Below, piece by piece: positions 1 through 63,127 of a stretch of DNA of 64,000 nt. The number at the start of each line of letters is the position of its first letter. Within the stretch, counting starts at the first letter, position 1. Position numbers and translations under genes: made by a program. The notes below the pieces were generated by a model. The model worked only from the letters and a program-made list of their open reading frames with translations, was not told the DNA's origin and searched no databases. Origin of the DNA: Piscinibacter gummiphilus (GTDB lineage: Bacteria > Pseudomonadota > Gammaproteobacteria > Burkholderiales > Burkholderiaceae_C); NCBI RefSeq assembly GCF_032681285.1, contig NZ_CP136336.1:1847001-1911000 (forward strand). The letters run 5' to 3'.

Positions 1-3000
1 GCGCGCGCACGTCGGCCGTCTCCAGGTGGGCGATCTGCTCGAGCGTGAGCGCGGCGATCTGCTGCGTGCCCAGGCGGCTGAACTGCAGCGTGCTCAGGGC
101 GTTGAGGTCTTGCGTCTCCAGCGTGGCGATCTGCCACGGCGTGAGCGCGTTGACCTGCGCGGAAGTGAGCGAGACGATCTGCTGCGTGGACAGCGCCCCC
201 AGGCTCTCGGGCGCGAGGCTCTCGATCTGGCTGGTGGTGAGCGCCACGATCTGCCCGGTGCTGAGGGCGGCGATGTGGTCGCTCGTGAGCCAGGCGAGCT
301 GGTCGGGTGCCATCGCACGCAGCGCGGTGGTGGTGATGGCCCGCAGGTCCTGCGTCTCCAGGTTGGCGATCTGGCCGCCGGTGAGGCCGGCGACCTGCGC
401 GCTCGTGAGCGAGGCGAACTGTTGGGTGCCGAAGCCGTTGAGGTCGGGGCTCGAGAGCGCGCCGATCTGGTCGGAGGTGAACGACGCGATCTGCTGCGTG
501 GTGAGCGCGGCGAAATGCTGCGAGCCGAGCGCGTCGATCTGCTCGGGCGAGAAGGCCCGCAGCGCGCCGGTGGTGAGCGCGGCCACGTCGGCCGTCTCCA
601 GGCTGGCCACCTGGTCGAGCGTGAGCGAGGCGATCTGCTGCGTGCCGAGTGCGCGGAACTGCGTCGTGCTGAGCGCGTTCAGGTCCTGCGTCTCCAGCGT
701 GACGATCTGCCACGGGGTGAGCGCGTTGAGCTGCGTGGTCGTGAGCGAGGCGATCTGAAGCGTCGAGAGGGCCGCCAGCGCCTCGGGTGCGAGGCTCTCG
801 ACCTGGCTGGTGGTGAGCGAGGCGATCTGCGCGGTGCCGAGCGCCTGCAGCAGGTCGCTCGTGAGGGCGGCCAGCTGCTCGGGCGCGAGTGCGCGCAGCG
901 CGGTGGTGGTGAGCGCGCGCAGGTCTTGCGTCTCGAGGTTCAGGAGCTGGTCGGCGGTGAGGCCCGTGACCTGCGTGCTCGTGAGCGAGGCGAACTGCTG
1001 CGTGCCGAAGCCGTTGAGGTCGCTCACCGACAGGGCGCCGATCTGCCCCGCGCTGAACGAGGCGATCTGGGTGGTGGTGAGTGCGCCGAAGTGCTGCGAG
1101 CCCAACGCATCGAGCTGCTCGGGCGAGAGTGCCTGCAGCGCGGTGGTCGACAAGGCCGCCACGTCGGCTGTCTCCAGGTTGGCGACCTGGTCGAGCGTGA
1201 GCGCGGCGATCTGCTGCGTGCCGAGTGCGCGGAATTGCAGCGTGCTCAGCGCGTTGAGGTCTTGCGTTTCGAGTGCGGCCACCTGCCCGGGCGTGAGGGC
1301 GGCCAGCTGGCTGCTGGTGAGCGAGACGATCTGCTGCGTGGAGAGCGCGCCCAGCGTCTCGGGCGGCAGGCCGGCGATCTGCGCGGTGGTGAGCTGCGCG
1401 ATCTGCGAGGTGGCGAGCGAGGCGAGGTGGTCGCTCGTGAAGGCGGCGAGCTGGTCGGGCGTGAGCGCGCGCAGGGCGACCGAGCTCAAGGCGCGCAGGT
1501 CGGCGGTCTCGAGCAGCGCGATCTGCTCGACGCGCAGCGCGGCGGCTTGCGCGCTCGTGAGCACCGCGAAGTGCGCGGTCTGCAGCGCGTTGAGGTCTTC
1601 GTTGGTGAGGTAGGAGACCTGCTCGGTGGTGAGTGCGGCCACCTGGGCGGTGCCGAACGACGCGTAGTGCTGCGAGCCCAGGGCTTCGAGTTGCCAGATG
1701 CTGAGCGCCTGCAAGGCGGCGCTGCCGAGGGCGCGCAGGTCGGCCGTCTCCAGCTGGCCCATCTGGTCGAGCGAGAGGGCGGAGATCTGGGCGGTGCCGA
1801 GCGCGGCGAACTGTGCGCTGCCCAGCGCGTTGAGGTCTTGCGTCTCCATCAGCGCCAGCTGCAGCGGCGTGAGGCTGGCGGCCTGGGCGGTGGTGAGCGC
1901 GGCGATCTGCGCCGTGCCGAAGGAGTTGAGCTGCTCGGGCGCGAGGCCGGCCACCTGGGCGGTGTTGAGCGCGGCGACCTGGGCGGTGCCGAGCGCGGCG
2001 AGATGGTCGGAATTGAGCACCGAGAGCTGGTCGGTCGAGAGCGCGCGCAACGCGGTGCTGCTGAGCGCGGCCACGTCGGCGGTTTCAAGGCCGGCGACCT
2101 GCTCGAAGGTGAGTGCCGAGGCCTGCGCCGTGCCGAAGGTGGCGAAGTGCTCGGTGCCCATCGCGTTGAGGTCTTCGCCCGACAGCGCGGCGATCTGGTC
2201 GGTGCGCAGCGCATTGGCCTGGGCGGTGGACAGGCTCGCGAAGTGCTGCGTGCCCAGCGCGTCGAGCTGCTCGGGCGAGAAGGCGCGCAGCGCCGCGCTG
2301 CTGAGGGCGCGCAGGTCAGCCGTCTCCAGCGCGGCCACCTGCTCCAGCGTGAACGCCGAGGCTTGCGCTGTGTTGAAGGCGGCGAACTGCTCGGTGCCCA
2401 GCGAGTTGAGCACGTCGGTCGACATGGCGGCGATCTGCGCGCCGCTGAACGAGGCCACCTGTGCGGTGGAAAACGCCGCGAAGTGCTGGCTGCCCAGCGC
2501 CTGGAACTGCTCGGGCGTCATCGACTGCAGCGCGGCCGGGCTCAAGGCGCGCAGGTCGGCCGTCTCGAGCTGTGCCACCTGGTCGGTGGTGAGTGCGGCG
2601 ATCTGGTGCGTGCCCAGCGCCTGGAACTGCGCGGTCGAGAAGGCGTTGAGGTCTTGCGTCTCGAGCGCGGCGATCTGCTCCGGCGTGAGCGCGGCCACCT
2701 GGGCGGTGCTGAAGAGCGGCATCTGCGCGGTGGTGAAGGCGGCCAGGTCTTCGCTGGAGAGGCTCGCGATCTGCGCGGTGCTGAGGGCGCCGAGCTGCGT
2801 GCTCGTGAGCGCGGGGAAGTGGTCGGAGCCGAGGGCGCCCAGCTGGTCGGACGACCACGCGCGCAGGCCGGCGGTGCCGATGGCGCGCAGGTCGGCCGTC
2901 TCCAGCATCGAGATCTGCTCGGTGGTGAGGGCGGCGATCTGCGCCGAGGTGAAGGCGGCGAAGTGCTGTGGCAGGAAGGAGTTGAGGTCGCGTGTGGACA

Positions 3001-4606
3001 TCGCCGCGAGCTGCTCGGGCGTGAACGCGAGCCCCGCCGAGAGCGACACACGCTGCAACGCCGTGAGTGCGGCCAGCTGCTCGGCCGTCATCGCGCTCAG
3101 CACGGCGGTGGGCAGCGCGTTGAGGTCTTCGGTCGAGATGGTGGGGATCTGGTCGGTGGTGAGCGCGACGATCTGCGTGCTGGTGATGGCGGCGAACTGC
3201 GTCGTGGTCAGCGCGTCGAGGTCGGCCGTGTCGAGGTGGGCGAGCTGGTCGGTGGTGAGCGCGCGCACCTGGCTGGTGGTGAGCGCGACGATCTGGCCGC
3301 TGGTCAACGCATTGAGCTGCGCGCTGCCAATCCCCTGCAGCGTGGCGGTGCCGATGGCGCGCAGGTCGATGGTCTCGATGGCAGCGATCTGGTCGCTGTT
3401 GAACCCATTGATCTGCGTGGCCGAGAGCCCGGCGAACTGCGCGGTGGTGAGGAGGCGCACGTCGGCCGTCTCGAGCCCCGCGAGCTGCTGCGGGGTGAGC
3501 GCGTTGAGCTGGTCGCTCGTGAACGAGGCGATGTGCGCGGTGGTGAGCGCGGCCATCTGGTCGGAGCTGAGCGTTTGCAGCATGTCGCTCGACAGCGCCC
3601 GCAGGTCCACCGTTTCCAGCACGGCGATCTGGTGCGAGCCGAGCGCGGCCACCTGGTCGACGGTGAGCGAGGCGACCTGCGCGGTGGTGAGCGCCACCAC
3701 GTCCTGCGTGGCGAGTTCGGCGATCTGCGTGGTGGTGAGCGCGCGCACCTGCCCGGTGGTGATCTGGGCGATCTGCGCGGTGCTGAAGGCCGCCATCTGG
3801 TCGGAGTTGAGCCCCGCCAGCGCGTCGACCGAGATGGCGCGCAGGTCGGCCGATTCGAGCGTGGCGAGCTGGTCGGTGCGCAGGGCCGCGACCTGGGCCA
3901 GGTTGAGGGCTGCGAACTGGGCAGTCCCCAGCGCCCGCAGGTCCTGCGTTTCGAGGGCGGCAATGCTGTCGAGCGTGAGCGAGGCCACCTGGGCCGGGGT
4001 GAGGGCAGCGAACTGCGCGGTCGTGAAGGCGTTGAGCTCGTCGGTGTCGAGCACGCGCAGCTGCTGCGTGGTGAGCTGCGACACCTGGCCCGTGGTGAGC
4101 GCGGCGAGCTGGGCGGTGGAGAGCTGCGCGATCATGGCCGTGCTGATCGACGGGATCACGTCGGTCGACAGGCCCACGATGCGCGAGGTGGCCAGGAGCG
4201 CGATCTGTTCGGTGGTGAAGGCGTTGATCTGCGCGCTGTTGTAGGCGCGCAGGTCGGCCGACTCGAGTGCGCGGAAGTCTGCCGTCTCGAGCGCGGCGAT
4301 CTGCACCGGCGTGATGGCGCTCGCCTGGGTGACGGTGAAGAGCGCGAACTGGGAGGCGGTGAGGGCGTTGAGCTGGTCGGTGCTCATCGCCGCGATCTGC
4401 GACGGCGTGAGCGCGCGCACCTGCTCATCGGTCAGGGCGTATTGCGACCCGCCGTTGTTGCCGTTGTTCCCGCCGTTGTTGCCATTGCCGTTGCCGCCAC
4501 CGTTGTTCGGGGTGGCAAAGGAGTTGTCGGACGAGAACCAGTCGCCGAAACGGATCTTCAGCTTGCTGAGCAGCGCCGTCCCGGTCAACCACTTGAAGAG
4601 CTTCAT
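1..4606 (-). CDS. Giant octapeptide-repeat protein, 3' end outside window
   Basis: Not a recognised family. The frame opens at an ATG (4604-4606) with GAAGG about 8 bases upstream and an in-frame stop just before that, and stays open to the left edge (1535 codons, C-terminus missing). The N-terminus (MKLFKWLTGTALLSKLKIRF) is not a convincing signal peptide. A Gly/Asn-rich linker follows (about residues 34-54), then from residue 58 unbroken octads of consensus L-x-T/S-x-Q/D-I/L/V-x-A, about 184 in the window. A marker octad (LETADV/L type) falls every 24 octads: its DNA anchor is at 9, 585, 1161, 1737, 2313, 2889, 3459 and 4035, all 576 bp apart except one 570-bp step, explained by one octad shortened to six residues (LSAGLA, near 3030-3050). 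Repeats are more diverged than in the next gene upstream. Role unknown; a large surface or secreted protein is inference from its neighbour. Confidence 0.8.
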   Translation of the reverse strand, partial: MKLFKWLTGTALLSKLKIRFGDWFSSDNSFATPNNGGGNGNGNNGGNNGNNGGSQYALTDEQVRALTPSQIAAMSTDQLNALTASQFALFTVTQASAITPVQIAALETADFRALESADLRAYNSAQINAFTTEQIALLATSRIVGLSTDVIPSISTAMIAQLSTAQLAALTTGQVSQLTTQQLRVLDTDELNAFTTAQFAALTPAQVASLTLDSIAALETQDLRALGTAQFAALNLAQVAALRTDQLATLESADLRAISVDALAGLNSDQMAAFSTAQIAQITTGQVRALTTTQIAELATQDVVALTTAQVASLTVDQVAALGSHQIAVLETVDLRALSSDMLQTLSSDQMAALTTAHIASFTSDQLNALTPQQLAGLETADVRLLTTAQFAGLSATQINGFNSDQIAAIETIDLRAIGTATLQGIGSAQLNALTSGQIVALTTSQVRALTTDQLAHLDTADLDALTTTQFAAITSTQIVALTTDQIPTISTEDLNALPTAVLSAMTAEQLAALTALQRVSLSAGLAFTPEQLAAMSTRDLNSFLPQHFAAFTSAQIAALTTEQISMLETADLRAIGTAGLRAWSSDQLGALGSDHFPALTSTQLGALSTAQIASLSSEDLAAFTTAQMPLFSTAQVAALTPEQIAALETQDLNAFSTAQFQALGTHQIAALTTDQVAQLETADLRALSPAALQSMTPEQFQALGSQHFAAFSTAQVASFSGAQIAAMSTDVLNSLGTEQFAAFNTAQASAFTLEQVAALETADLRALSSAALRAFSPEQLDALGTQHFASLSTAQANALRTDQIAALSGEDLNAMGTEHFATFGTAQASALTFEQVAGLETADVAALSSTALRALSTDQLSVLNSDHLAALGTAQVAALNTAQVAGLAPEQLNSFGTAQIAALTTAQAASLTPLQLALMETQDLNALGSAQFAALGTAQISALSLDQMGQLETADLRALGSAALQALSIWQLEALGSQHYASFGTAQVAALTTEQVSYLTNEDLNALQTAHFAVLTSAQAAALRVEQIALLETADLRALSSVALRALTPDQLAAFTSDHLASLATSQIAQLTTAQIAGLPPETLGALSTQQIVSLTSSQLAALTPGQVAALETQDLNALSTLQFRALGTQQIAALTLDQVANLETADVAALSTTALQALSPEQLDALGSQHFGALTTTQIASFSAGQIGALSVSDLNGFGTQQFASLTSTQVTGLTADQLLNLETQDLRALTTTALRALAPEQLAALTSDLLQALGTAQIASLTTSQVESLAPEALAALSTLQIASLTTTQLNALTPWQIVTLETQDLNALSTTQFRALGTQQIASLTLDQVASLETADVAALTTGALRAFSPEQIDALGSQHFAALTTQQIASFTSDQIGALSSPDLNGFGTQQFASLTSAQVAGLTGGQIANLETQDLRAITTTALRAMAPDQLAWLTSDHIAALSTGQIVALTTSQIESLAPESLGALSTQQIVSLTSAQVNALTPWQIATLETQDLNALSTLQFSRLGTQQIAALTLEQIAHLETADVRA

Positions 4607-4685
4607 GTCAGGGCCTTCGCGCCATTTTCATGACATGACCCCACGGTTGATCGGGGGAAACGGGCGCTATCCACGGCCCATCTGT

Positions 4686-4748
4686 GGCCGTGGCAACCGA
4701 CGGGCCGCAGCAACCGCCCCGGGGGAGGAGGTTGCTGCGCCACGGTCG
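4686..4748. other. Hairpin between the two giant repeat genes
   Basis: The 147-bp gap between the two minus-strand repeat genes contains a nested inverted repeat. The outer arms are CCGTGG (4688-4693) and CCACGG (4740-4745). The inner arms are GCAGCAACC (4707-4715) and GGTTGCTGC (4730-4738). No T-run follows on either strand, so a classic terminator is not supported; a processing or attenuation site is possible. Confidence 0.4.
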
Positions 4749-4753
4749 TTGCG

Positions 4754-7700
4754 TCAGATCAGCGGCGTGTTGTTGTCGGCGTCCGGCAGCAGGCGGTTGT
4801 CGATCGCCCCGGTCGAAGCGGCAGGTGCCGCGGCGGCCGGTGCGGCAGCCGTGCTGCCCGGCAACACCTCGCTCGGCGCGCTGGCGAGCAGCTCGTCAAG
4901 CTTCGGTGCGTCCTTCGAGAACCACACGTCGGCCATGTCGTGCGTGCTGCCGTCGGCCTTGCTGTAGCTGGACGTGATGCCCAGGAGGTTGCCGTTGTCG
5001 ACCGCGGTGCCGGTCACGCCGTGCAGGTCGAGCGACACGATGCCGAAGTCAGCCAGGCCGTGCAACTCGCCGGCGTCGGTCTTGCCGTCGGAGTTGGCGT
5101 CGACCCAGACACGCAGCTTGTCGAAGTTGGCGTCGCTCGCGTTGAGCACGCCGTCTCCGTTGCTGTCTTCCAGCTTCATGGCCTCGTAACCGTTGCCGGC
5201 GCGGGTGCCATCGGCGCGCTTCGTGGCCACACCGAAGAGTTCGGTGCCGTCATTGATCGAGCCGTCGCCGTTGCGGTCCATCGCGAGCAGGCCGTCGGTG
5301 GCGGAAGCCCAGCCCACGCGGTTGGCCGTGTTGCCCGTGCCGTTCAGGTCGAAGTGGACACCGTTGGCCGCAGCCAGGGTGCTCACGCCGTTGCCGTCGA
5401 GGTCGAGCACGATCGGCGAGGCCGCGAAGAACGCGTCGAGCTGCGCCGCCGACATCTGGCCGATGTCATCGGTGGCGAAGGCCGCGACTTGCGTCATGTC
5501 CATCGCTGCGATGTCCTGCGTCTGCAGGCCGGCGACCTGGTCGGTGGTCAGGGCCACGATCTGGTCGGTCGTCAGCGCCGTGATCTGCGCCGTGGTGAAG
5601 GCGGAGATCTGCGCGTTGGTCAGCGCGGCGAAGGCGTCGGTGCTGATCGCGGCGATCTGGTCGCTGTCGAGCGCCTGGATGCCTGCCGTGGTGATCGAAC
5701 GGATGTCGTTCGTCTCCAGGGCGTTCATCTGCTCGGTCGTCAACGCATGGATCTGGGCCGTGCTGAGCACCATGAACTGCGAGGTGCTCAGTGCGTTCAG
5801 GTCGTCGGTGTCGAGGCCGGCGATCTGCTGCGTGGTCAGCTGGTTGACCATGCCGCCGAGCTGCTGCATCTGCGTCGAGGTCAGCGCGCCGAGCTGCTCA
5901 TCGGTCAGCGAGCGCAGCGAGGCGACCGTCAGGGCGCGGATGTCCTGCGTGTCGAGCGACGGGATCTGGTCGCTCGTCAGGCCGGCCACCTGGTCGGTGG
6001 TGAGCGCGGCGTAGTGCGCCGTGCTCATCGCCACCAGGTCCTCGGTGGTCATGGTGCCGATCTGCGCGGAGCTCAGGGCATGCACCTGGGCCGTCGTCAT
6101 CGCGGCGAACTGGTCGCTGGTGAAGGCGTTGAGGTCGTTGCTGTTGAGCGCACCGATCTGCTGCGTGGCGAGCGTGGACACCTGTTGCGTCGTCAGGGCC
6201 CCGATCTGGTCGGAGTTGAGCGCCGCGAACTGGTCGCTGCCGAGTGCACGCAGGCCAGCCGAGGAGATCGCACGCAGGTCGTTGGTTTCGAGCGCGGCGA
6301 GCTGGTCGGTCGAGAGCGCATGCACCTGGTCGGAGTTCATCGCCGCGAACTGGGCGGAGCCGAGTGCGTTGAGCTTGTCCGTGGTCAGGGCATTGATCTG
6401 CTGCGTGGTGAACGCACCGACCTGGGCGGTGGTGAGCGCACCGAGCTGGTCGCTCGTCAGGGCGTTGAGCTGGTCAGACTTGAACGACTGGATCGACGCG
6501 GTGCCGATGGCGCGCAGGTCGTTGGTTTCCAGCGCGACCATGTGGTCGGTGCTGAAGGCCCCGAGCTGGGCGCTCGTCAGGCGGCCGACCTGGGCGGTCG
6601 ACAGCGCGGCGACGTCGGCCGTCTCCATCGTGGAGATCTGCGCGGTCGTCAGCGCCACGATCTGCGCCGTGCTCAGGCGCGAGATCTGGTCGGTGTTGAA
6701 CGCGTTCAGGTCATCGCTGTTGAGCGTGTGGATCTGGTCGGTCGTGAGCGACATCACCTGCGTGCTGGTGAGCGCGCCGATGTGGTCGGAGCTGAGCGCT
6801 GCCAGCTGGTCGCTGCCGAGGGCGCGCAGGCCGGCGGTGCTGAGGGCACGCAGGTCGTTCGTCTCGAGGGCACCGAGCTGGTCGCTGTTGAGACCCACCA
6901 CCTGGGCGCTCGAGAGCGTCGCGAAGTGCTGGGTGCCCAGAGCGTTCAGGTCCTCGGTGGTCATCGTGCCGAGCTGCGCCGAGGTCAGAGCCGAGGTCTG
7001 GGCCGTCGTGAGGGCGCCGATCTGGTCGCTGCTCAGCGCGCCGAGCTGGTCGCTGTTCAGGCCACGGATGGTGTTGCTCGAGATGGCACGGAGGTCGTTG
7101 GTCTCGATGGCACCGATGTGGTCGCTGTTGAAGGCACCGATCTGGGCGCTCGACAGGTTGGCCACTTGCGCAGTGGTCAGGGCCACGACGTCAGCCGTCT
7201 CCATGGTGGAGATCTGGCTGGTCGACAGGGCACCGATCTGCGTGGTCGTCAGACGCGGGATCTGGTCGCTGGTCAGCGCGTTCAGGTCGTCGCTGTTGAG
7301 GCTCTGGACCTGCTGCGTCGTGAGCGACACCACCTGGGCCGAGGTGAGGGCACCGATGTGATCCGAGTTCAGCGCGGCCAGTTGGTCGCTGCCGAGCGCG
7401 CGGATCGCCGCGCTGCTCAGGGCACGCAGGTCGTTGGTCTGCAGACCGCCGAGCTGGTCGCTGTTGAGGCCCACCACCTGGGCGCTCGAGAGCGTGGCGA
7501 AGTGCTGGGTGCCGAGGGCGTTGAGGTCCTCAGTGGTCATCGAGCCGAGCTGAGCCGAGGTCAGTGCGGCCGACTGAGCGGTCGTCAATGCGCCGATCTG
7601 GTCGCTGTTGAGGGCGGCCAGCTGGTCGCTGTTGAGGCCACGGATCGTGTTGCTCGAGATCGCACGCAGGTCGTTGGTCTCGATGGCGCCGATGTGGTCG

Positions 7701-10700
7701 CTGTTGAAGGCGCCGATCTGGGCGCTCGTCAGGTTGGCGACCTGGGCGGTGCTCAGGGCGACGACGTCAGCCGTTTCCATGGTGGAGATCTGGCTGGTCG
7801 ACAGGGCCCCGATCTGCGTGGTGGTCAGGCGCGGGATCTGGTCGCTGGTGAGCGCGTTCAGGTCATCGCTGTTGAGGCTGCGGATCTGCTGCGTGGTCAG
7901 CGACACGACTTGCGCCGAGGTCAGCGCGCCGATGTGGTCGGACGTGAGGGCGGCCAGCTGGTCGCTGCCGAGTGCACGGATCGCGGCGCTGCTCAGGGCA
8001 CGCAGGTCGTTGGTCTGCAGGCCGCCGAGCTGGTCGCTGTTGAGGCCCACCACCTGGCTGCTCGAGAGCGTCGCGAAGTGCTGGGTACCCAGGGCGTTCA
8101 GGTCCTCGGTGGTCATCGTGCCGAGCTGAGCCGAGGTCAGTGCGGCAGTCTGGGCGGTGGTCAGGGCACCGATCTGGTCGCTGTTGAGGGCGGCCAGCTG
8201 GTCGCTGTTGAGACCACGGATGGTGTTGGTCGAGATCGCACGCAGGTCGTTGGTCTCGATGGCACCGATGTGGTCGCTGTTGAAGGCACCGATCTGGGCG
8301 CTCGACAGGTTGGCCACTTGCGCGGTGGTCAGGGCCACCACGTCGGCGGTCGCCATGGTGGAGATCTGGCTGGTCGACAGGGCGCCGATCTGCGTGGTCG
8401 TCAGGCGCGGGATCTGGTCGCTCGTCAGCGCATTCAGGTCATCGCTGTTGAGGCTCTGGACCTGCTGCGTCGTGAGCGACACCACCTGGGCCGAGGTGAG
8501 GGCGCCGATGTGGTCGGAGTTCAGCGCGGCGAGCTGGTCGCTGCCGAGCGCGCGGATCGCGGCGCTGCTCAGGGCACGCAGGTCGTTGGTCTGCAGACCG
8601 CCGAGCTGGTCGCTGGTCAGGCCGGCGACTTGCACGCTGGTGAGCGTGGCGAAGTGCTGGGTGCCCAGGGCGTTCAGGTCCTCGGTGGTCATCGTGCCGA
8701 TCTGCGCCGAGGTCAGCGCAGCCGACTGTGCAGTGGTCAGCGCGCCGATCTGGTCGCTGTTGAGGGCGGCCAGCTGGTCGCTGTTGAGACCGCGGATGGT
8801 GTTGGTCGAGATCGCACGCAGGTCGTTGGTTTCGATCGCACCGATGTGGTCGCTGTTGAAGGCACCGATCTGGGCGCTCGTCAGGTTGGCGACCTGGGCG
8901 GTGCTCAGGGCCACGACGTCAGCCGTCTCCATGGTGGAGATCTGGGCGGTCGACAGGGCGCCGATCTGCGTGGTCGTCAGACGCGGGATCTGGTCGCTGG
9001 TGAGGGCGTTCAGGTCGTCGCTGTTGAGGCTCTGGATCTGCTGGGTGGTCAGCGAGACGACCTGGGCCGAGGTGAGGGCGCCGATGTGGTCGGAGGTCAG
9101 GGCGGCGAGCTGGTCGCTGCTCAGCGCACGGATCGCGGCGCTGCTCAGGGCGCGCAGGTCGTTGGTCTGCAGGCCGCCGAGCTGGTCACTGGTCAGGCCG
9201 GCGACTTGCACGCTGGTGAGCGTGGCGAAGTGCTGGGTGCCCAGGGCGTTCAGGTCTTCGGTGGCGAGCCAGCCGAGTTGCTGCGAGTTCATCGCAACGG
9301 TCTGCGCGGTGGTCAGCGCACCCATCTGGTCGGTGCTGAGGGCGATCAGCTGGTCGCTGGTCAGGCCCTGCATCGACAGGGTGGCGATGGCACGCAGGTC
9401 GTTGGTTTCGATGGCACCGATGTGGTCGGTGTTGAACGCGCCGACTTGCGAGCTTGCCAGGCGGTTGACCTGGGCGGTGCTCAGGGCCACGACGTCGGCC
9501 GTCTCCATGGTGGAGATCTGGGCCGTGGTCAGGGCGCCGATCTGGGCGGTCGTCAGGCGCGGGATCTGGTCGCTGGTCAGTGCATTCAGGTCATCGCTGT
9601 TGAGGCTCTGGACCTGCTGCGTGGTGAGCGAGACGATCTGCGCCGAGGTCAGCGCGCCGATGTGGTCGGAGTTCAGCGCGGCGAGCTGGTCGCTGCCGAG
9701 TGCGCGCACGGCGTTGCTGCCGAGGGCACGCAGGTCGTTGGTCTCGAGTGCGCCGAGCTGGTCGCTGTTGAGGCCCACCACCTGGGCGCTCGAGAGCGTC
9801 GCGAAGTGCTGGGTGCCCAGGGCGTTGAGGTCGTTGGTGGCCAGGGTGGCGATCTGCTGCGAGGTGAGGGCCGAGGTCTGGGCCGTCGTGAGTGCGCCGA
9901 TCTGGTCGCTATTGAGCGCGCCGAGCTGGTCGCTGTTCAGGCCACGGATGGTGTTGCTCGAGATCGCACGGAGGTCGTTGGTCTCGATGGCACCGATGTG
10001 GTCGCTGTTGAAGGCGCCGATCTGGTCGCTCGTGAGGTTGGCCACTTGCGCGGTGGTCAGGGCCACGACGTCGGCCGTCTCCATGGTGGAGATCTGGCTG
10101 GTCGACAAGGCGCCGATCTGCGTGGTCGTCAGACGCGGGATCTGGTCGCTGGTGAGCGCGTTCAGGTCGTCGCTGTTGAGGCTGCGGATCTGCTGCGTGG
10201 TGAGCGACACGACTTGCGCCGAGGTCAGCGCGCCAACGTGATCGGACGTGAGGGCCGCGAGCTGGTCGCTGCCGAGCGCACGGATCGCGCCGCTGCTCAG
10301 GGCGCGCAGGTCGTTGGTCTGCAGGCCGCCGAGCTGGTCGCTGTTGAGGCCGGCGACTTGCACGCTGGTGAGCGTGGCGAAGTTCTGGGTGCCCAGGGCG
10401 TTCAGGTCCTCGGTGGTCATCGAGCCGAGCTGAGCCGAGGTCAGGGCGGCGGTCTGGGCGGTGGTCAGGGCGCCGATCTGGTCGCTGTTGAGGGCGGCCA
10501 GCTGGTCGCTGTTCAAGCCACGGATCGTGTTGCTCGAGATCGCACGGAGGTCGTTGGTCTCGATGGCGCCGATGTGGTCGCTGTTGAAGGCGCCGATCTG
10601 GGCGCTCGACAGGCTGGCCACTTGTGCGGTGGTCAAGGCCACCACGTCGGCGGTCGCCATGGTGGAGATCTGGCTCGTCGACAGGGCGCCGATCTGCGTG

Positions 10701-13057
10701 GTCGTCAGACGCGGGATCTGGTCGCTGGTGAGGGCGTTCAGGTCATCGCTGTTGAGGCTGCGGATCTGGTCGGTCGTCAGCGAGACCACTTGCGCCGAGG
10801 TCAGGGCACCGATGTGGTCGGAGTTCAGCGCCGCCAGCTGATCGCTGTCGAGCGCACGGATCGCCGCGCTGCTCAGGGCACGCAGGTCGTTCGTCTCCAG
10901 GGCGCCGAGCTGGTCGCTGTTGAAGCCGGCGACCTGGGCGCTCGAGAGCGTCGCGAAGTGCTGGGTGCCCAGGGCATTCAGGTCGTTGGAGGCCAGGCCG
11001 GCGATCTGCTGCGAGGTCAGGGCAGAGGTCTGGGCCGTCGTGAGCGCGCCCATCTGGTCGCTGTTGAGCGCGCCAAGCTGGTCGCTGTTCAGGCCACGGA
11101 TGGTCGCGGTCGAGATCGCCCGCAGGTCGTTGGTCTCGATGGCGCCGATGTGGTCGCTGTTGAAGGCACCGATCTGGTCGCTGCTCAGGCGGGCGACTTG
11201 CGCGGTGGTCAGGGCCACGACGTCAGCCGTCTCCATGGTGGAGATCTGGGCGGTCGAGAGGGCGCCGATCTGCGTGGTCGTCAGACGCGGGATCTGGTCG
11301 CTGGTGAGGGCGTTCAGGTCGTCGCTGTTGAGGCCTTGAACCTGCTGCGTCGTGAGCGAGACGACCTGGGCCGAGGTGAGGGCACCGATGTGATCCGAGT
11401 TCAGGGCGGCCAGTTGGTCGCTGCCAAGTGCGCGGATCGCGGCGCTGCTCAGGGCGCGCAGGTCATTGGTCTGCAGGCCGCCGAGCTGGTCGCTGTTGAG
11501 GCCCACCACCTGGGCGCTGGACAGGCCCGCGAAGTGCTGGGTGCCCAGGGCGTTCAGGTCCTCGGTGGTCATCGAGCCAAGCTGCGCCGAGGTGAGAGCG
11601 GCCGTCTGGGCGGTGGTGAGGGCGCCGATCTGGTCGCTGTTGAGGGCGGCCAGCTGGTCGCTGTTCAAGCCACGGATGGTGTTGCTCGAGATCGCGCGGA
11701 GGTCGTTGGTCTCGATGGCGCCGATGTGGTCGCTGTTGAAGGCGCCGATCTGGGCGCTCGTCAGGTTGGCGACCTGGGCGGTGCTCAGGGCCACGACGTC
11801 AGCCGTCTCCATGGTGGAGATCTGGCTGGTCGAAAGGGCACCGATCTGCGTGGTCGTCAGACGGGGGATCTGGTCGCTGGTCAGCGCGTTCAGGTCGTCG
11901 CTGTTGAGGCTCTGAACCTGTTGGGTGGTCAGCGAGACGACCTGTGCCGAGGTGAGGGCGCCGATGTGGTCGGAGGTCAGGGCGGCCAGTTGGTCGCTGC
12001 CGAGCGCGCGGATCGCGGCGCTGCTCAGGGCACGCAGGTCATTGGTCTGCAGGCCGCCGAGCTGGTCGCTGTTGAGGCCCACCACTTGGGCGCTGGACAA
12101 GCCGGCGAAGTGGTGCGTGCCGAGGGCGTTCAAGTCCTCGGTGGTCATCGTGCCGAGCTGCGCCGAGGTGAGCGCGGCGGTCTGGGCGGTGGTGAGCGAG
12201 CCGATCTGGTCGCTGTTCAGCGCACCGAGCTGGTCGCTGTTGAGACCGCGGATGGTGTTGGTCGAGATCGCACGCAGGTCGTTGGTCTCGATGGCACCGA
12301 TTTGGTCGCTGTTGAAGGCGCCGATCTGGGCGCTCGTCAGGTTGGCCACTTGCGCGGTGCTCAGCGCCACGACGTCGGCCGTCTGCATCGTCGAGATCTG
12401 GTCGGTCGTCAGGGCGCCGATCTGGGCCGTGGTCAGGCGCGGGATCTGGTCGCTGGTGAGCGCATTCAGGTCATCGCTGTTGAGGCTGCGGATCTGGTCG
12501 GTGGTGAGCGACACCACTTGCGCCGAGGTCAGGGCACCGATGTGGTCGGAGTTCAGTGCGGCCAGCTGATCGCTGTTGAGCGCGCGGATGCCGGCGGTCG
12601 TGAGGGCGCGCAGGTCGTTGGTTTCGAGCGCACCGAGCTGATCGCTGTTGAGCGCGGCGACCTGCTGCGTCGACAGGGTCGCAAAGTGCTGCGTGCCCAG
12701 GGCGTTCAGGTCCTCGGTGGTCATGGTCGAGACCTGGGTGCTCGTCAGGTTGGCCACCTGCAAGGTGGTCAGGCCCTGCACCTGGTCGCTGCCGAGCGCA
12801 TTGAGCTGGTCGCTGTCGAGCGCACGCATCACCTGCGTGGTCATCGCGCGCAGGTCCTGCGTCTGGAACGCGATCATGTGGCTGCTGCTCAAGCCGGGGA
12901 CACCCGCCGTCGAGATCGCCGCAATCTGCGCCGTCGTCAGCGCCGCAATCTGGTCGCTGTTGAACGCTGCCCAGTCTTCGGTCGTCAGACCGGCGATCGT
13001 CCTGCTCGATAGGCCGGAGATCTGTGCGGTGCTGAGGGCTGCGATGATGGTGGCCAT
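4754..13057 (-). CDS. Giant octapeptide-repeat protein with C-terminal EF-hand-like calcium-binding domain
   Basis: A 2767-residue protein. The ATG at 13055-13057 has AAGGA 6 bases upstream. After seven residues it consists of about 318 consecutive octads (consensus L-T/S/N-T/S-x-Q/D-I/L/V-x-A) up to about residue 2545. The last 220 residues form a different domain with four DxDxDG-type loops (LDLDGNGVSTL, DRNGDGSINDGTE, DSNGDGVLNASD, DANSDGKTDAGE), the module found at the C-terminus of many large RTX-like secreted proteins, then an Ala/Pro-rich tail. There is no Sec or Tat signal, consistent with type I secretion (inference; no transporter lies in the window). Octads are ordered into a 24-octad, 192-residue super-repeat. 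Its marker METADVVA anchor (CCAT or GCAT) occurs at 6625, 7201, 7777, 8353, 8929, 9505, 10081, 10657, 11233, 11809 and 12385, each exactly 576 bp apart. Likely a surface or biofilm matrix protein; function unproven. Confidence 0.85.
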   Translation of the reverse strand: MATIIAALSTAQISGLSSRTIAGLTTEDWAAFNSDQIAALTTAQIAAISTAGVPGLSSSHMIAFQTQDLRAMTTQVMRALDSDQLNALGSDQVQGLTTLQVANLTSTQVSTMTTEDLNALGTQHFATLSTQQVAALNSDQLGALETNDLRALTTAGIRALNSDQLAALNSDHIGALTSAQVVSLTTDQIRSLNSDDLNALTSDQIPRLTTAQIGALTTDQISTMQTADVVALSTAQVANLTSAQIGAFNSDQIGAIETNDLRAISTNTIRGLNSDQLGALNSDQIGSLTTAQTAALTSAQLGTMTTEDLNALGTHHFAGLSSAQVVGLNSDQLGGLQTNDLRALSSAAIRALGSDQLAALTSDHIGALTSAQVVSLTTQQVQSLNSDDLNALTSDQIPRLTTTQIGALSTSQISTMETADVVALSTAQVANLTSAQIGAFNSDHIGAIETNDLRAISSNTIRGLNSDQLAALNSDQIGALTTAQTAALTSAQLGSMTTEDLNALGTQHFAGLSSAQVVGLNSDQLGGLQTNDLRALSSAAIRALGSDQLAALNSDHIGALTSAQVVSLTTQQVQGLNSDDLNALTSDQIPRLTTTQIGALSTAQISTMETADVVALTTAQVARLSSDQIGAFNSDHIGAIETNDLRAISTATIRGLNSDQLGALNSDQMGALTTAQTSALTSQQIAGLASNDLNALGTQHFATLSSAQVAGFNSDQLGALETNDLRALSSAAIRALDSDQLAALNSDHIGALTSAQVVSLTTDQIRSLNSDDLNALTSDQIPRLTTTQIGALSTSQISTMATADVVALTTAQVASLSSAQIGAFNSDHIGAIETNDLRAISSNTIRGLNSDQLAALNSDQIGALTTAQTAALTSAQLGSMTTEDLNALGTQNFATLTSVQVAGLNSDQLGGLQTNDLRALSSGAIRALGSDQLAALTSDHVGALTSAQVVSLTTQQIRSLNSDDLNALTSDQIPRLTTTQIGALSTSQISTMETADVVALTTAQVANLTSDQIGAFNSDHIGAIETNDLRAISSNTIRGLNSDQLGALNSDQIGALTTAQTSALTSQQIATLATNDLNALGTQHFATLSSAQVVGLNSDQLGALETNDLRALGSNAVRALGSDQLAALNSDHIGALTSAQIVSLTTQQVQSLNSDDLNALTSDQIPRLTTAQIGALTTAQISTMETADVVALSTAQVNRLASSQVGAFNTDHIGAIETNDLRAIATLSMQGLTSDQLIALSTDQMGALTTAQTVAMNSQQLGWLATEDLNALGTQHFATLTSVQVAGLTSDQLGGLQTNDLRALSSAAIRALSSDQLAALTSDHIGALTSAQVVSLTTQQIQSLNSDDLNALTSDQIPRLTTTQIGALSTAQISTMETADVVALSTAQVANLTSAQIGAFNSDHIGAIETNDLRAISTNTIRGLNSDQLAALNSDQIGALTTAQSAALTSAQIGTMTTEDLNALGTQHFATLTSVQVAGLTSDQLGGLQTNDLRALSSAAIRALGSDQLAALNSDHIGALTSAQVVSLTTQQVQSLNSDDLNALTSDQIPRLTTTQIGALSTSQISTMATADVVALTTAQVANLSSAQIGAFNSDHIGAIETNDLRAISTNTIRGLNSDQLAALNSDQIGALTTAQTAALTSAQLGTMTTEDLNALGTQHFATLSSSQVVGLNSDQLGGLQTNDLRALSSAAIRALGSDQLAALTSDHIGALTSAQVVSLTTQQIRSLNSDDLNALTSDQIPRLTTTQIGALSTSQISTMETADVVALSTAQVANLTSAQIGAFNSDHIGAIETNDLRAISSNTIRGLNSDQLAALNSDQIGALTTAQSAALTSAQLGSMTTEDLNALGTQHFATLSSAQVVGLNSDQLGGLQTNDLRALSSAAIRALGSDQLAALNSDHIGALTSAQVVSLTTQQVQSLNSDDLNALTSDQIPRLTTTQIGALSTSQISTMETADVVALTTAQVANLSSAQIGAFNSDHIGAIETNDLRAISSNTIRGLNSDQLGALSSDQIGALTTAQTSALTSAQLGTMTTEDLNALGTQHFATLSSAQVVGLNSDQLGALETNDLRALSTAGLRALGSDQLAALSSDHIGALTSTQVMSLTTDQIHTLNSDDLNAFNTDQISRLSTAQIVALTTAQISTMETADVAALSTAQVGRLTSAQLGAFSTDHMVALETNDLRAIGTASIQSFKSDQLNALTSDQLGALTTAQVGAFTTQQINALTTDKLNALGSAQFAAMNSDQVHALSTDQLAALETNDLRAISSAGLRALGSDQFAALNSDQIGALTTQQVSTLATQQIGALNSNDLNAFTSDQFAAMTTAQVHALSSAQIGTMTTEDLVAMSTAHYAALTTDQVAGLTSDQIPSLDTQDIRALTVASLRSLTDEQLGALTSTQMQQLGGMVNQLTTQQIAGLDTDDLNALSTSQFMVLSTAQIHALTTEQMNALETNDIRSITTAGIQALDSDQIAAISTDAFAALTNAQISAFTTAQITALTTDQIVALTTDQVAGLQTQDIAAMDMTQVAAFATDDIGQMSAAQLDAFFAASPIVLDLDGNGVSTLAAANGVHFDLNGTGNTANRVGWASATDGLLAMDRNGDGSINDGTELFGVATKRADGTRAGNGYEAMKLEDSNGDGVLNASDANFDKLRVWVDANSDGKTDAGELHGLADFGIVSLDLHGVTGTAVDNGNLLGITSSYSKADGSTHDMADVWFSKDAPKLDELLASAPSEVLPGSTAAAPAAAAPAASTGAIDNRLLPDADNNTPLI
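6300..12720 (-). repeat. Tandem 576-bp higher-order repeat (24 x 24 bp), about 11 near-identical copies
   Basis: Within the 2767-aa gene the 24-bp octad repeat is arranged into a 576-bp unit repeated about 11 times with no net indel; anchors at 6625 to 12385 all differ by exact multiples of 576. The same octad phase can be followed less clearly outward to 12961 (LTTEDWAA) and to 6049 and 5473 (MTTEDLVA, FATDDIGQ). Copies differ mainly by single codons. Unit edges are given approximately because the array is periodic. Confidence 0.9.
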
Positions 13058-57535: not shown

Positions 57536-59500
57536 TCACGCCGGCGAGCCCAGGTCCCAGAGCCGCAGCGCGATGTGGAGCTCGAGCGCGCGGGTGGCGC
57601 TGCCCCAGTGGCCGATCAGGTCTTCGAGGGTCGCCAGGCGCTGGCGCACCGTGTTGACGTGGATGCCGAGCTTCTGCGCCGTCGTCTTGGCGTTCTGGTT
57701 GCAGTCGAAGTAACACAGCAGCGTTGCGGCGAGCTCGGTGCCGCGCTTGCGGTCGTGCGAGGTCACGGCGCCGATCGTTGCGTCGAGAAATGTCTGCAGG
57801 CTCGCGCGGTCGTGCGTTTCGAAGAGGGTCGAGTACAGGGCCAGTTCGTTCTGTCCGATCACGTGGCCCTGCACGCCCATGCGCCCGAGCACGCCCAGCG
57901 CGCGGCGCAACGTCGCGTACACCGCCGGGATCTCCGCCACCGCCGAGATCGGCCGTGACACCACGCCGCGGTGCACGGCCGCCATCTCGCTGCGGGCCCA
58001 TTGGGTGGCGAGCAGGCGCAGCTCGGGCGCACGGCTTGCAGTGCACAGCATCACGAGCACGCCGTCGATGTCGTCGACCAGCACGTCGTCCTGCGGCGGG
58101 AAGGCGCGGAAGCGGCGCGCCGCGTAGCCCGCGCTCGGGCTGTCCATCTCGATCAGCAGCAAGGCGAGCGGCTGCGCGAGGTCGACGCCCAGGCGCGCGG
58201 CGCGGTCGGCCATCAGCGCGGCTTCGTCCTGGCGGGGTGATACCAGCGCGCGCAGCAGCGCGGCGACAGCGCGGCTCTTGTTCGCCTCCATGCGCTCCTG
58301 CGACAGCAGCACGATGCCGATGACGCTGGAGCTGCGCTCGAGCGTGCGCACGGCGACCTCTTCGAGTTCGCCGCGGTGGAAGAGGGCGACCGAGCCGAGG
58401 ATGTCGTCGCCGCCGATCACGGGCATCACGCGGCAGCGTTCGTCGCCCACCTCGTAGGCCTGCACGGAGCGCCCCGTCTGCCGGCTCAGGCGCAAGGCGC
58501 GCGCGACGTCGGTGCTGTGCTCGCCGTGCGGCGCGTAGCGCTGGGCCGCATCGCCCACATACGACTCGGCACTGCCTCGGGCGATGACCTGGGCGGCTTC
58601 GTCCAGCACCAGCAGGCTTCCGCCGAGCAGCTGCGCCACCGCGCCACACAACGTGGAGAGCGAGGCCCCGCGTGACAACAGCGAGGTCATCTGCTCGTGG
58701 GCATCGGCGGCCGCCTGGATGCTGCGCAGGTGCCGCTCGAGTTCGGCGCGTGCGGCATCGGCCTTCGCCAGTGCATCGCTCGCGCGCTCGAAGTCGCGTG
58801 CGTTGCGCAGCGCGACGGCGGCATGCGTGGCAAGCGTGCACAGGATCGAGATGCTCTGCGCGGTGTGCACCCGGTGGTAGCGGTCGGCCACGAAGAGCAG
58901 GCCAATCACCTCGCCGTCCCAGATCAGCGGCACGCCCACCAGCGCGGTGATGCCTTCGTCGCGGAAGGTGTCGTCGAGCCGGCCGTCGTGCGGGAAGCGC
59001 CGGTCGTGCAGGTAGTCGGGTGTGGTGAAGGGCAGGCGCGTGCTCATCACGACGCTCACCACCCCGCGGTCGCTGCGCGCGGCCATGTCGGTCACGCTGC
59101 GCGAGAGCGCACCTTCGGCCACCACCACATGGAACTCGCCGCGTTCGGCGTCGTGGGTCGTGAGCCACGCCAGGTCGGAGCCGAGCAGGTTGCGCGCCTT
59201 CGAGACGATCGCTCGCAGCAGGCTGGTGTGGTTGAGGCGGCTCGACAGGTCCTGTGCCGACTCGATCACCGCGAGCATGCCCTGCTCACGCTGCTGCAGC
59301 AGCTCGAGACGGTTGCGCACCGCCATCGCCATGCGCACGAGCTCGGTCTGGGCCGACTTGCCCGGCGTGCCCTCGGGCAGCGCCTCCGTCTGCGCCAGGA
59401 CCTGCGCGAAGACCTCGGCCGATGCATCCTGATGCAGCAGCTGCACCAGCCGGCCATCGAGCGGCTCGACACATTCGGGAGTGAGGGCTGCGGCGTCCAT
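57536..59500 (-). CDS. PucR/CdaR-type transcriptional regulator with GAF domain
   Basis: 654 residues from the ATG at 59498-59500 (MDAAALTPECVEPLDG). A GAF-type sensor domain (about 80-230: SSRLNHTSLLRAIVSKARNLLGSDLAWL, GVPLIWDGEVIGLLFVADRYHR), a short coiled coil (about 235-265), a central domain, and the C-terminal PucR helix-turn-helix (about 590-650: LLCYFDCNQNAKTTAQKLGIHVNTVRQRLATLEDLIG). PucR-type regulators usually activate catabolic genes in response to a substrate. It is divergent from the esterase fusion gene and probably controls it. Much longer upstream in-frame extension overlaps the esterase gene and is rejected. Confidence 0.9.
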   Translation of the reverse strand: MDAAALTPECVEPLDGRLVQLLHQDASAEVFAQVLAQTEALPEGTPGKSAQTELVRMAMAVRNRLELLQQREQGMLAVIESAQDLSSRLNHTSLLRAIVSKARNLLGSDLAWLTTHDAERGEFHVVVAEGALSRSVTDMAARSDRGVVSVVMSTRLPFTTPDYLHDRRFPHDGRLDDTFRDEGITALVGVPLIWDGEVIGLLFVADRYHRVHTAQSISILCTLATHAAVALRNARDFERASDALAKADAARAELERHLRSIQAAADAHEQMTSLLSRGASLSTLCGAVAQLLGGSLLVLDEAAQVIARGSAESYVGDAAQRYAPHGEHSTDVARALRLSRQTGRSVQAYEVGDERCRVMPVIGGDDILGSVALFHRGELEEVAVRTLERSSSVIGIVLLSQERMEANKSRAVAALLRALVSPRQDEAALMADRAARLGVDLAQPLALLLIEMDSPSAGYAARRFRAFPPQDDVLVDDIDGVLVMLCTASRAPELRLLATQWARSEMAAVHRGVVSRPISAVAEIPAVYATLRRALGVLGRMGVQGHVIGQNELALYSTLFETHDRASLQTFLDATIGAVTSHDRKRGTELAATLLCYFDCNQNAKTTAQKLGIHVNTVRQRLATLEDLIGHWGSATRALELHIALRLWDLGSPA

Positions 59501-59752
59501 CGTTCGATCTCGGCCGCAGAGGCTAGCAGAGGCATGGCGCCATGGCGCGCCGATACGGCCAAAACCTTCTTCGGGTTTTCGCGGTGGCCCGCGCGCACAT
59601 CGCGCACCGGCTGCGTATGTGTCGCTCACACATTGAGCCGGCCACGCCCCGAGCCGAGACTGCGTCGCGTGCCGACAGCCCGTGGACCGTGTGTGCGTCT
59701 GCGCAAGAGAGCACCGCTGGGTCGCCCCAGCCACACAAGACCAGGAGACACC
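59501..59752. promoter_or_regulatory. Divergent promoter region, PucR regulator / esterase fusion
   Basis: 252 bp between two divergent starts. It contains two palindromes: CATGGCGCCATG (59533-59544) and ATGTGT-CGCTC-ACACAT (59617-59633, perfect 6-bp arms). Either could be the operator of the PucR-type regulator. No clear -35/-10 pair was assigned. Confidence 0.4.
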
Positions 59753-62700: not shown

Positions 62701-63127
62701 GCCGGTCACCACGCCGACGACGGGCTGGAACGCGCGCACCGAGCAGCTCAACCGCATCTTCTTCCTCAACAGCCGCGACAGCATGATCGCCGCGCTGCAG
62801 ACGCAGCAGAGCAACATCTGGCACTACCGCTTCGACTGGGACGAACTGCCCACGCCGTTCAACGACATCTTCGGCGCGGCGCACGCGTTCGACCTGCCGT
62901 TCGCGTTCGGCAACTTCGGGCCGTCGCTCTACGCCGGCATCTCGTACACCACCGCCAACCGCCCGGGCCGCCTTGCGCTGTCGGACGCCATGATGCGCAG
63001 CATCGGCGCCTTCGCTCGCAACGGCGACCCGAACAACGCCGCACTCGGCGTCACCTGGCCGGTCTGGCCGGCATCGCTGCGCTTCGATGCCACGGCCACG
63101 GCCAAGGCCATCTCCGTGCAGCCCTGA
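59753..63127 (+). CDS. Lipoprotein fusing a tannase/feruloyl-esterase domain to a type-B carboxylesterase
   Basis: 1124 residues; GGAG precedes the ATG at 59753. Signal with lipobox LSAC (Cys23) predicts a lipid-anchored protein. Residues about 40-560 are a tannase/feruloyl esterase family domain: nucleophile Ser212 (AGGSTGGREAL), Asp462 (LLLAHGLSDVLVSS) and His500 (GYGHALS). The two cysteines normally next to Ser and His in this family (CS...HC) are Gly and Ala here. Residues about 570-1120 are a type-B carboxylesterase: FKGIPYA-like WKGIPYAKAP, EDCLYLNVW, WVHGGS oxyanion loop, Ser781 (GQSAGA), Glu933 (TRDEGKLF), His1044 (GAAHAFDLPF). Both active sites look complete. Likely hydrolyses plant-derived phenolic or other esters at the cell surface; substrate not proven. 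Confidence 0.9.
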   Translation: MRPHYQALRLAFATIAVTALSACGGGDGDASAPPPPAPLACTALAGMTIPAAAIGLPTTGGTVTTATVVAASGTGASAVPEHCLVNGQIAPVDSAAQAIQFRVALPTVWNGKAMMYGGGGFDGSIPNVVGNVPAGSPNQALPIGRGYAVFASNGGHQAGALGSLDGTFLLNEEMLRNWAGEALKKTRDASAFLIRARYGVSTIQQSYFAGGSTGGREALEVATRWPDDWTGIIAWYPAWKQMSAMLAGHRASRALAQPGAYPSTPKRKLIQDAALEACDGLDGLADGLISNQNRCNAVFDPSTATLNGTPLRCPDGADTGDTCLSDVQIATLKAMNASTRFNFTLASGETGYPGYNVWGADLGITSNPSPLQPTITFLNLNTSQPVHPMPATAPYISRQLDAMIRYGVTRDLGYDSLSLDPENPGPWGPRLSELSTLLDVPVDLDAFAAKGGKLLLAHGLSDVLVSSRGTEEYYQRLQARMGPAEVDKFVRYYEAPGYGHALSTSFNVAWDSLTALENWVEQGTVPPLQVMGDTASGSIARTRPLCEYPKWARYNGSGDVNAAASFTCVPYEDVPPTQRSTTLGTVIGSDLSATSGTYAWKGIPYAKAPVGDLRWRAPAEADAWTTPRYTQTFGNACSSAGRLYGPGLNNRYDATIGTSLGQTVGSEDCLYLNVWRPASAATNLPVIVWVHGGSNITGYTADPMYDGANLARTANAVVVSVNYRLGLLGFFNLGQLKSGTNALDDSGNFAILDIIKALQFVNRNVASFGGNAGNVTLMGQSAGAVNVFAVMTSPLVAAANPALVHKWLPISGGLSPASELPAGSIATMAAPSDFRGQADYFLARLVIADGLATDIPSASAYIAGQTAEQIATYVRAKSADTIWQTVVTQLAPIGAGGSGPIGDGNVVPLNPIAAIRAGQYARGPVLMGNTRDEGKLFPTLLPLVGGAVGRLINDATVFSIAYGYQPNAAPQTTLEQWIPASYLPVTTPTTGWNARTEQLNRIFFLNSRDSMIAALQTQQSNIWHYRFDWDELPTPFNDIFGAAHAFDLPFAFGNFGPSLYAGISYTTANRPGRLALSDAMMRSIGAFARNGDPNNAALGVTWPVWPASLRFDATATAKAISVQP

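Follow-up and report, generated by a model that had tools for sequence, protein, structure and literature searches.

The window analysed here is a 64,000-bp stretch of Piscinibacter gummiphilus contig NZ_CP136336.1, and at its start lie two giant minus-strand genes, an upstream gene (4754-13057) and a downstream gene (2-4606), that are arrays of octapeptide (24-bp) repeats. In each gene the octads are organised into a higher-order repeat (HOR) of 24 octads, or 576 bp. Our results suggest that the long repeats of such octad arrays mostly span a whole number of turns, at about 3.4 units per turn. On this reading, to which we give a probability of roughly 70%, the octads wind into a screw whose pitch of about 3.4 octads explains the lengths of the HORs, and changes by whole turns are the ones that persist. 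The 24 octads of the window genes probably make up seven turns of such a screw, since the arrays have a period of 3.405 octads, the HOR lengths of relatives fall near whole turns and the comparison of an AlphaFold2 model with armadillo (ARM) proteins points the same way.

The octad arrays and their 576-bp repeat

Both genes belong to Pfam family PF20080 (ALTTAQ repeat), scoring 2229.6 bits upstream and 1151.1 bits downstream against a curated cut-off of 26.4, and the Pfam scan placed 92 stretches of the family in the upstream gene and 52 in the downstream gene. The commonest residues by octad position are L T T A Q L/V/I A A. A preliminary description of this DNA had proposed the octapeptide build of both genes, and parsing of the octad register bears it out together with the PF20080 matches. 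The parts of the arrays are these:

4754-13057, minus strand: upstream gene, 2767 aa, an octad array (octads from residue 8) followed by a C-terminal domain like a self-processing module (SPM); recognised from its open reading frame (ORF), translation and third-position GC of 0.927
5885-13036, minus strand: 298 octads of the upstream gene in a single register, with a 24-octad HOR (lag-24 z 42.6)
12461-13036, minus strand: N-terminal edge unit of the upstream gene, divergent
6701-12460, minus strand: ten core 576-bp units of the upstream gene (residues 200-2119), with a mean pairwise nonsynonymous distance (Ka) of 0.072 and synonymous distance (Ks) of 0.419
11885-12460, 11309-11884, 10733-11308, 10157-10732 and 9581-10156, minus strand: first five core units
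9005-9580, 8429-9004, 7853-8428, 7277-7852 and 6701-7276, minus strand: other five core units
5549-6700, minus strand: two C-terminal edge units of the upstream gene, divergent, with the octad register lost partway through the last
2-4606, minus strand: N-terminal part of the downstream gene (1927 aa), which extends past the window; the remainder lies in locus L009, to C1:1845823
3041-4435, minus strand: first octad run of the downstream gene, 58 octads
3026-3040, minus strand: register break (non-octad residues) in the downstream gene, giving a 570-bp step
2-3025, minus strand: second octad run of the downstream gene, with a 24-octad HOR

The 576-bp recurrence is the strongest lag in the DNA autocorrelation of positions 1-13057, with an identity of 0.68 against an all-lag mean of 0.29, and further peaks stand at 240 and 336 bp. 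Both the 24-bp and the 576-bp peak are seen in both genes (0.561 and 0.835 in 6300-13057; 0.490 and 0.537 in 1-6000), and the 576-bp lag reaches only 0.28-0.30 in three stretches taken from elsewhere in the window. Against shuffled octads, the 24-octad lag of the downstream gene has a z of 18.8. The preliminary description had also listed nineteen anchors of the repeat, and 18 of them hold. All eleven upstream anchors, from 6625 through 12385, carry TxQISTM[EAQ] at an exact 576-bp step with 19-24 of 24 bases kept, and LETAD[VL] occurs at the downstream anchors 9, 585, 1161, 1737, 2313, 2889 and 3459 with 18-24 of 24 bases kept. The eighth downstream anchor, at 4035, is weak (12 of 24 bases). 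The single 6-bp loss claimed for the downstream gene is real: between 2889 and 3459 the step is 570 bp, a non-octad piece of 14 residues standing where the register needs 16. Marker octads of the form [E/Q][ST]xD are spaced mostly 10, 10 and 4 octads apart in both window genes.

The minus strand is the coding one: third-position GC is 0.927 there and 0.612 in the plus-strand shadow ORF of the upstream gene. Very long antisense ORFs, 26-4633 and 4940-13012 on the plus strand, lie opposite both repeat genes and are open across the arrays, probably because of codon bias. We regard the plus-strand ORFs over both genes as shadows, from the measured third-position GC for the upstream gene and by analogy for the downstream one.

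The 3.4-octad period and the lengths of the higher-order repeats

Among the 31 same-family relatives with a PF20080 match, 14 were used for discovery and 7 for a forecast. The discovery set, to which both window genes belong, comprised 7011 parsed octads and 27 arrays for the period analysis; L047 and L066 (duplicates of L067 and L052) and L009 (which overlaps the window) were left out, and L050 had no ORF long enough. The minimum array length was 60, 40 or 30 octads depending on the analysis. Averaged over the 27 arrays, octad self-similarity is highest close to multiples of 3.405 octads (27.2 residues) and falls halfway between them. Lags above expectation are 4, 6, 7, 10, 11 (barely), 14, 17, 20, 24, 27, 28, 34, 38, 41, 44, 47, 48, 51, 54 and 58; the minima lie roughly halfway from one main peak to the next. 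Fitting a cosine gave a mean best period of 3.405 octads, with all 27 arrays exceeding their own shuffles; the best period lay at 3.38-3.43 in 22 of them, and the other five pick 24/5 or 17/3, which are harmonics of their own HOR. The same period is strongest in individual residues, since 15 of 19 residue-feature tracks are strongest at 3.395-3.425 octads, led by Asp4 and Asp5. When the period was fitted per array within 3.33-3.48, Glu2, Asp4 and Asp5 lay opposite Gln5, Gly8 and Ala5 over 67-92 arrays; measured from Asp5, Glu2 and Asp4 are no more than 45 degrees away, whereas Gln5, Gly8 and Ala5 stand some 140-180 degrees apart from it.

The lengths of the HORs in relatives are mostly 7, 10, 17, 24, 27, 31, 34, 41, 44 or 58 octads. 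In the discovery set the strongest lags of at least 7 octads were 10, 17, 24, 27, 34, 41, 44, 48 or 58; with 3.405 octads to the turn, all 29 ORFs deviate from an integer by at most 0.10 turn, and per genome 19 of 19 by at most 0.15. These lengths are not an independent test, because the same data gave the 3.405 period, and this also applies to the 7.05 turns of the window repeat (24/3.405), which lies within the 0.15-turn limit. For seven same-family genomes a forecast of HOR and period was fixed before they were read, and none was made for other families. In the further genomes with a significant lag, the strongest HOR lag came within 0.15 turn of an integer in 13 of 16 (chance rate 0.30, p 3e-5). 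The forecast genomes contribute five of six (G030 24 octads, G011 17, G012 44, G052 17, G084 7) and the other families 8 of 10. The other-family set had 11 genomes, 10 with usable arrays; G550 had no run of 30 octads. Several ORFs of G030 come from one region, which the per-genome counts allow for and the per-ORF counts (23/25) do not.

A history of recombination alone, in which unequal crossing-over of ancestral blocks of 7 and 10 octads built the arrays with no turn count involved, has to be weighed at this point. Every strongest discovery lag (10, 17, 24, 27, 34, 41, 44, 48 and 58 octads) can be written as a sum of 7s and 10s, the steps from one marker octad to the next are mostly 4, 6, 7, 10 and 14 octads, and units are homogenised within genes. 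We nevertheless consider such a history unlikely as the whole explanation. The spectrum averaged over 37 other-family runs has its peak at 3.405 as well, and the discovery arrays have minima at half-turns. In all 17 further genomes with a usable array (18 fetched) similarity at whole turns exceeds that at half turns, averaged over runs. The period is also found inside single units. Each array was collapsed to a single consensus unit, so that duplicates cannot contribute to periodicity, and the predicted harmonic came out on top in 21 of the 29 discovery units and in 8 of the 24 others, against an expectation of 2.7 in each set; its power was significant in 23 of 29 and 11 of 24. The protein-level likeness of units is kept as well: Ka/Ks between the ten core upstream units is 0.17, which indicates that the amino acid pattern is being kept by purifying selection.

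A further argument against recombination alone comes from a predicted structure, which is independent of the HOR. The modelled piece was:

9650-10369, minus strand: stretch of 30 octads of the upstream gene modelled with AlphaFold2; 29 helices of at least 4 residues, predicted local distance difference test (pLDDT) 94.0, predicted template modelling score (pTM) 0.83

Octads per turn were estimated from superpositions of this model on ARM chains with a root-mean-square deviation of about 5-9 A, which gave 27.8 (sd 0.4) residues per 42-residue ARM coil for 25 importin-alpha chains and 28.2 residues per coil for 8 designed ARM chains, close to the sequence period of 27.2. The prediction is thus that an octad forms one helix and that a coil takes about 28 residues. 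A known octapeptide-repeat chain, PDB 9zem 'HeliScrew4', matches the 192-aa unit at E 1.1e-13. It is apparently a designed protein, judging from its name and sequence, and resembles the window arrays, but at 120 residues it is too short for a long HOR.

The mechanism that we favour would work as follows. Each octad would form one short alpha-helix, and successive octads would coil up as a screw-like solenoid, each turn taking about 3.4 octads (27 residues), so that octads whole turns apart would share a side and come to look alike, one side lined by Glu2, Asp4 and Asp5 and the other by Gln5, Gly8 and Ala5. Recombination between look-alike octads would then gain, lose and homogenise array segments within a gene. 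The faces would stay in register only if an exchange added or removed nearly whole turns, and this would restrict HOR lengths to 7 octads (2 turns), 10 (3), 17 (5), 24 (7), 27 (8), 31 (9), 34 (10), 41 (12), 44 (13) and 58 (17), the 576-bp unit being the seven-turn case. Such a grammar would be heptad-like, one level up, with units per turn in place of residues per turn. The periodicity, the preferred lengths, the homogenisation within genes and the purifying selection between units are observed, and selection on the facing sides may be the reason that whole-turn lengths persist. The stronger proposal, in which HOR length is quantised to whole superhelical turns so as to keep an acidic stripe continuous along the rod, which runs to hundreds of octads, and could be predicted from geometry alone, we place just short of an even chance; if it were true, repeat genetics would be filtered by three-dimensional phase. 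A further alternative would make the unit a ruler, with one binding or docking site per 24-octad unit and the length set by the spacing of a ligand or lattice. Purifying selection and the exact upstream unit length over 11 anchors fit such a ruler, yet the unit lengths of relatives differ (17, 24, 27, 34, 41, 44), which a fixed external lattice would forbid, and most of their values lie near whole turns, so that we consider it very improbable.

Several observations weigh against the screw with whole-turn lengths. HORs made from recombined 7- and 10-octad blocks would give the same arithmetic without any constraint. Among the forecast genomes, G055 misses (lag 53), G034 has no significant lag, and the period of the longest run lay within the forecast 3.36-3.45 in only four of seven. 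In other families G217 (22 octads) and G486 (12) miss whole turns, and a 2-octad (16-residue) alternation in G478, G486 and G449 could alone give their even lags. The harmonic power of collapsed units was not significant in 13 of 24 out-of-sample and 6 of 29 discovery units. Among wider homologues, 38 runs from 31 of 120 proteins have their main peak at 5.485 octads, with 3.36 minor; the other 89 had no run of 30 octads, which is a weak negative because the parser was tuned on the focal family. The octads per turn of the model derive from loose superpositions and not from coordinates. In additional comparisons, 11 beta-catenin rows gave 26.3-29.9 residues per coil (mean 28.9), SmgGDS 28.2 and p120 catenin 22.3. 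AlphaFold2 can also be over-confident on repeats, according to an excerpt of PMC11795689.

Descent of the two genes and of the 24-octad unit

The C-terminal domains of the two window genes are 62% identical and the genes are paralogues. The preliminary description had gone further and proposed one ancestral module that was multiplied, duplicated as a gene and then homogenised only in one copy. The paralogy, the shared 24-octad HOR with its 10-10-4 spacing and the homogenisation within genes all stand. In a unit tree the 12 upstream units form one clade (support 0.985) and 5 of 8 downstream windows another (0.996), so that units cluster by gene, in a tree biased by the choice of windows for likeness to the upstream consensus. 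Units of one gene also resemble each other more than do units from the upstream genes of two congeneric species; this is concerted evolution of units within genes. The restriction of homogenisation to one copy is inexact, as C-terminal-proximal stretches of the downstream gene have 79-83% DNA identity to the next unit, with a drop to 40-60% in the direction of its N-terminus.

That a single 24-octad module was ancestral to both genes, and was passed on by gene duplication or moved by conversion with stronger homogenisation in one copy, is doubtful on the sequence comparisons. In the same-genus genome G119 the two genes adjoin, and an exonuclease I gene is near the pair in both G119 and the window. 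The G119 upstream gene has an HOR of 24 octads, and its downstream gene, beside that same upstream gene, has one of 17 octads with 10-7 marker spacing. The first 12 octads of the window downstream gene are 54% identical to those in the same place of the G119 downstream gene, the best of 8 genes, and 9 of its 12 ten-octad blocks are nearest to that gene. By its position and by these sequence matches the window downstream gene is its orthologue. The top lag is also 17 in the downstream genes of G007, G062 and G056. A repeat of 24 octads occurs in the upstream-type genes of G119, G062 and G007 and in G030, and it arises elsewhere too, in G430 of another class. The consensus units of the two window genes reach an identity of 0.505 at the best of 24 phases, against 0.474 and 0.464 when they are slid by 10 or 14 octads, 0.474 being the highest other value. 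The downstream HORs of the window and its congener differ by 7 octads (24 vs 17), or 2.06 turns, and the 17-octad unit of G119 is 57% identical to the window unit minus seven octads, the median of alternatives being 40%.

Two findings count in favour of the common module and against our reading. The tree of C-terminal domains places the window downstream gene with the upstream genes (support 0.581) and not with the G119 downstream gene, and the 10-10-4 spacing is common to both window genes and the G119 upstream gene. The 62% identity of the C-terminal domains and the lead of the best consensus phase fit a common module too. In view of the tree grouping and the spacing, conversion of the downstream gene from the upstream gene is possible, as is common descent of the 24-octad unit. 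The 24-octad repeat is real, but we regard it as one of several lengths that are permitted more than as a singular ancestral module.

The protein family, its C-terminal domain and what the repeat lengths mean

All 120 PF20080 matches listed for the genome of the window (150 of 196 candidates scored) fall in these two genes. Counting that genome each time, PF20080 was found in 32 of 120 same-family genomes sampled, in 5 of 276 sampled at class level and in 24 of 397 sampled at phylum level. The preliminary description had suggested looking for the unit in other genomes, and octad arrays with HORs were found in relatives. A protein search gave 141 matches from 8000 scored candidates, and there were further members among the 120 matches listed. 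Some listed members are fused to what we take to be filamentous-haemagglutinin, RTX, LysM, G8 or calpain domains. One open frame has 6123 aa and 729 octads in one register with a 17-octad repeat (L103, G011 contig 22), where 'one register', as in the parsing of these further genomes, tolerates single off-consensus octads, which were bridged. ALTTAQ sequence amounting to about 26 kb is spread over at least nine ORFs in G030 (L101/L102, contig 12, 769-799 kb) and represents either decayed arrays or assembly errors. Another octad style, with a 2-octad (16-residue) alternation, is seen at L112, L113, L114 and L120 in the same phylum but another class. Short non-octad gaps of 1, 2, 3 or 11 residues, as defined by the parser, recur between octad runs at L055, L059, L060, L065 and L069; at L055 a 2-residue gap recurs every 48 octads.

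Known repeat families differ from these arrays. With its 38 residues, the PF20080 model can reveal neither the 3.4-octad period nor the HOR rule. ARM units have 42 residues and three helices in an excerpt of PMC11514114, whereas the window units have 8 residues, one predicted helix and about 3.4 units per coil, and ARM models are absent from the Pfam matches of the window octad genes, so that these are not ARM proteins. RTX proteins have glycine/aspartate-rich nonapeptide repeats; PF00353 was not matched at E <= 1 in the upstream gene or the 1535-aa part of the downstream gene, and within these scanned parts the genes do not belong to that group. Mesothelin shows a weak similarity. Nested longer periods are known in InaZ. 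An excerpt of PMC6400192 describes InaZ as a large bacterial octapeptide-repeat protein of consensus GSTXT(A/S) with a proposed beta-helical or solenoid fold; the window octads lack this consensus and are predicted to be all-alpha. Matches within octads to lanmodulin (under its cut-off), to CAAP1, Phage_TAC_7, LRR_EndoS, DUF7936 and DUF1861 (over theirs) and to other models were judged compositional. In the literature searched we found no paper with the word ALTTAQ or under the name HeliScrew, papers with the string pf20080 concern other topics by their titles, and nothing was found for octapeptide combined with higher-order repeat; under ALTTAQ, PF20080 or HeliScrew no study of the giant octad protein family was found.

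The arrays end in a domain related to a known calcium-dependent module:

4757-5419, minus strand: C-terminal domain of the upstream gene, homologous to the FrpC self-processing module; Ser-Pro replaces the scissile Asp-Pro, and the chain ends in PLI

PDB 6sjw, the FrpC module, aligns with this domain over 169 residues at E 4e-36; the downstream domain is assigned through its 62% identity to the upstream one. By homology the octad-linked domains belong to the FrpC-type modules and would be EF-hand-like, calcium-binding domains. The FrpC module folds on calcium and cuts the Asp-Pro bond ahead of itself, according to an excerpt of PMC7078468. The two window genes have Ser-Pro and Thr-Pro instead, and a pattern with Pro fixed and the preceding residue left free picked out 37 distinct octad-linked copies, in which that residue is Thr in 26, Ser in 11 and Asp in none. 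Because Ser or Thr replaces Asp in all of these copies, the known clip-and-link chemistry is not expected, and the module may be either a non-cutting calcium cap or one of changed chemistry. Of 15 same-family proteins that carry the domain, 11 have the C-terminal tail PLI and the others TMI, VLI, VLI and PII; the tail is a possible export or anchoring signal. Type I secretion uses an ABC exporter and an uncleaved C-terminal signal on the substrate. An HlyB-type exporter scores above its cut-off at C1:2840462, not adjacent to the octad genes, and because it is present elsewhere in the genome type I export of the octad proteins is plausible. No secretion operon was found among the scanned flanking ORFs, whose Pfam matches are HipA, an ArsA-like ATPase, a histidine kinase, an aminotransferase, exonuclease I and a subtilase. 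Elsewhere in the window the ORF 58697-63127 on the plus strand combines a tannase/feruloyl esterase domain (PF07519) in series with a carboxylesterase domain (PF00135).

We suppose that the proteins leave the cell, probably through type I secretion, as long rods with a calcium-binding SPM-like cap at the end, and that the acidic stripe may bind calcium or neighbouring rods. Higher-order repeats of DNA and protein arrays are usually taken as traces of recombination; in this family the repeat lengths obey a numerical rule in agreement with a predicted structural period. This provides a testable case of protein geometry deciding which products of recombination survive. The value of 3.4 octads per turn is a simple handle on a giant bacterial protein family and could serve as a design rule for octad screws.

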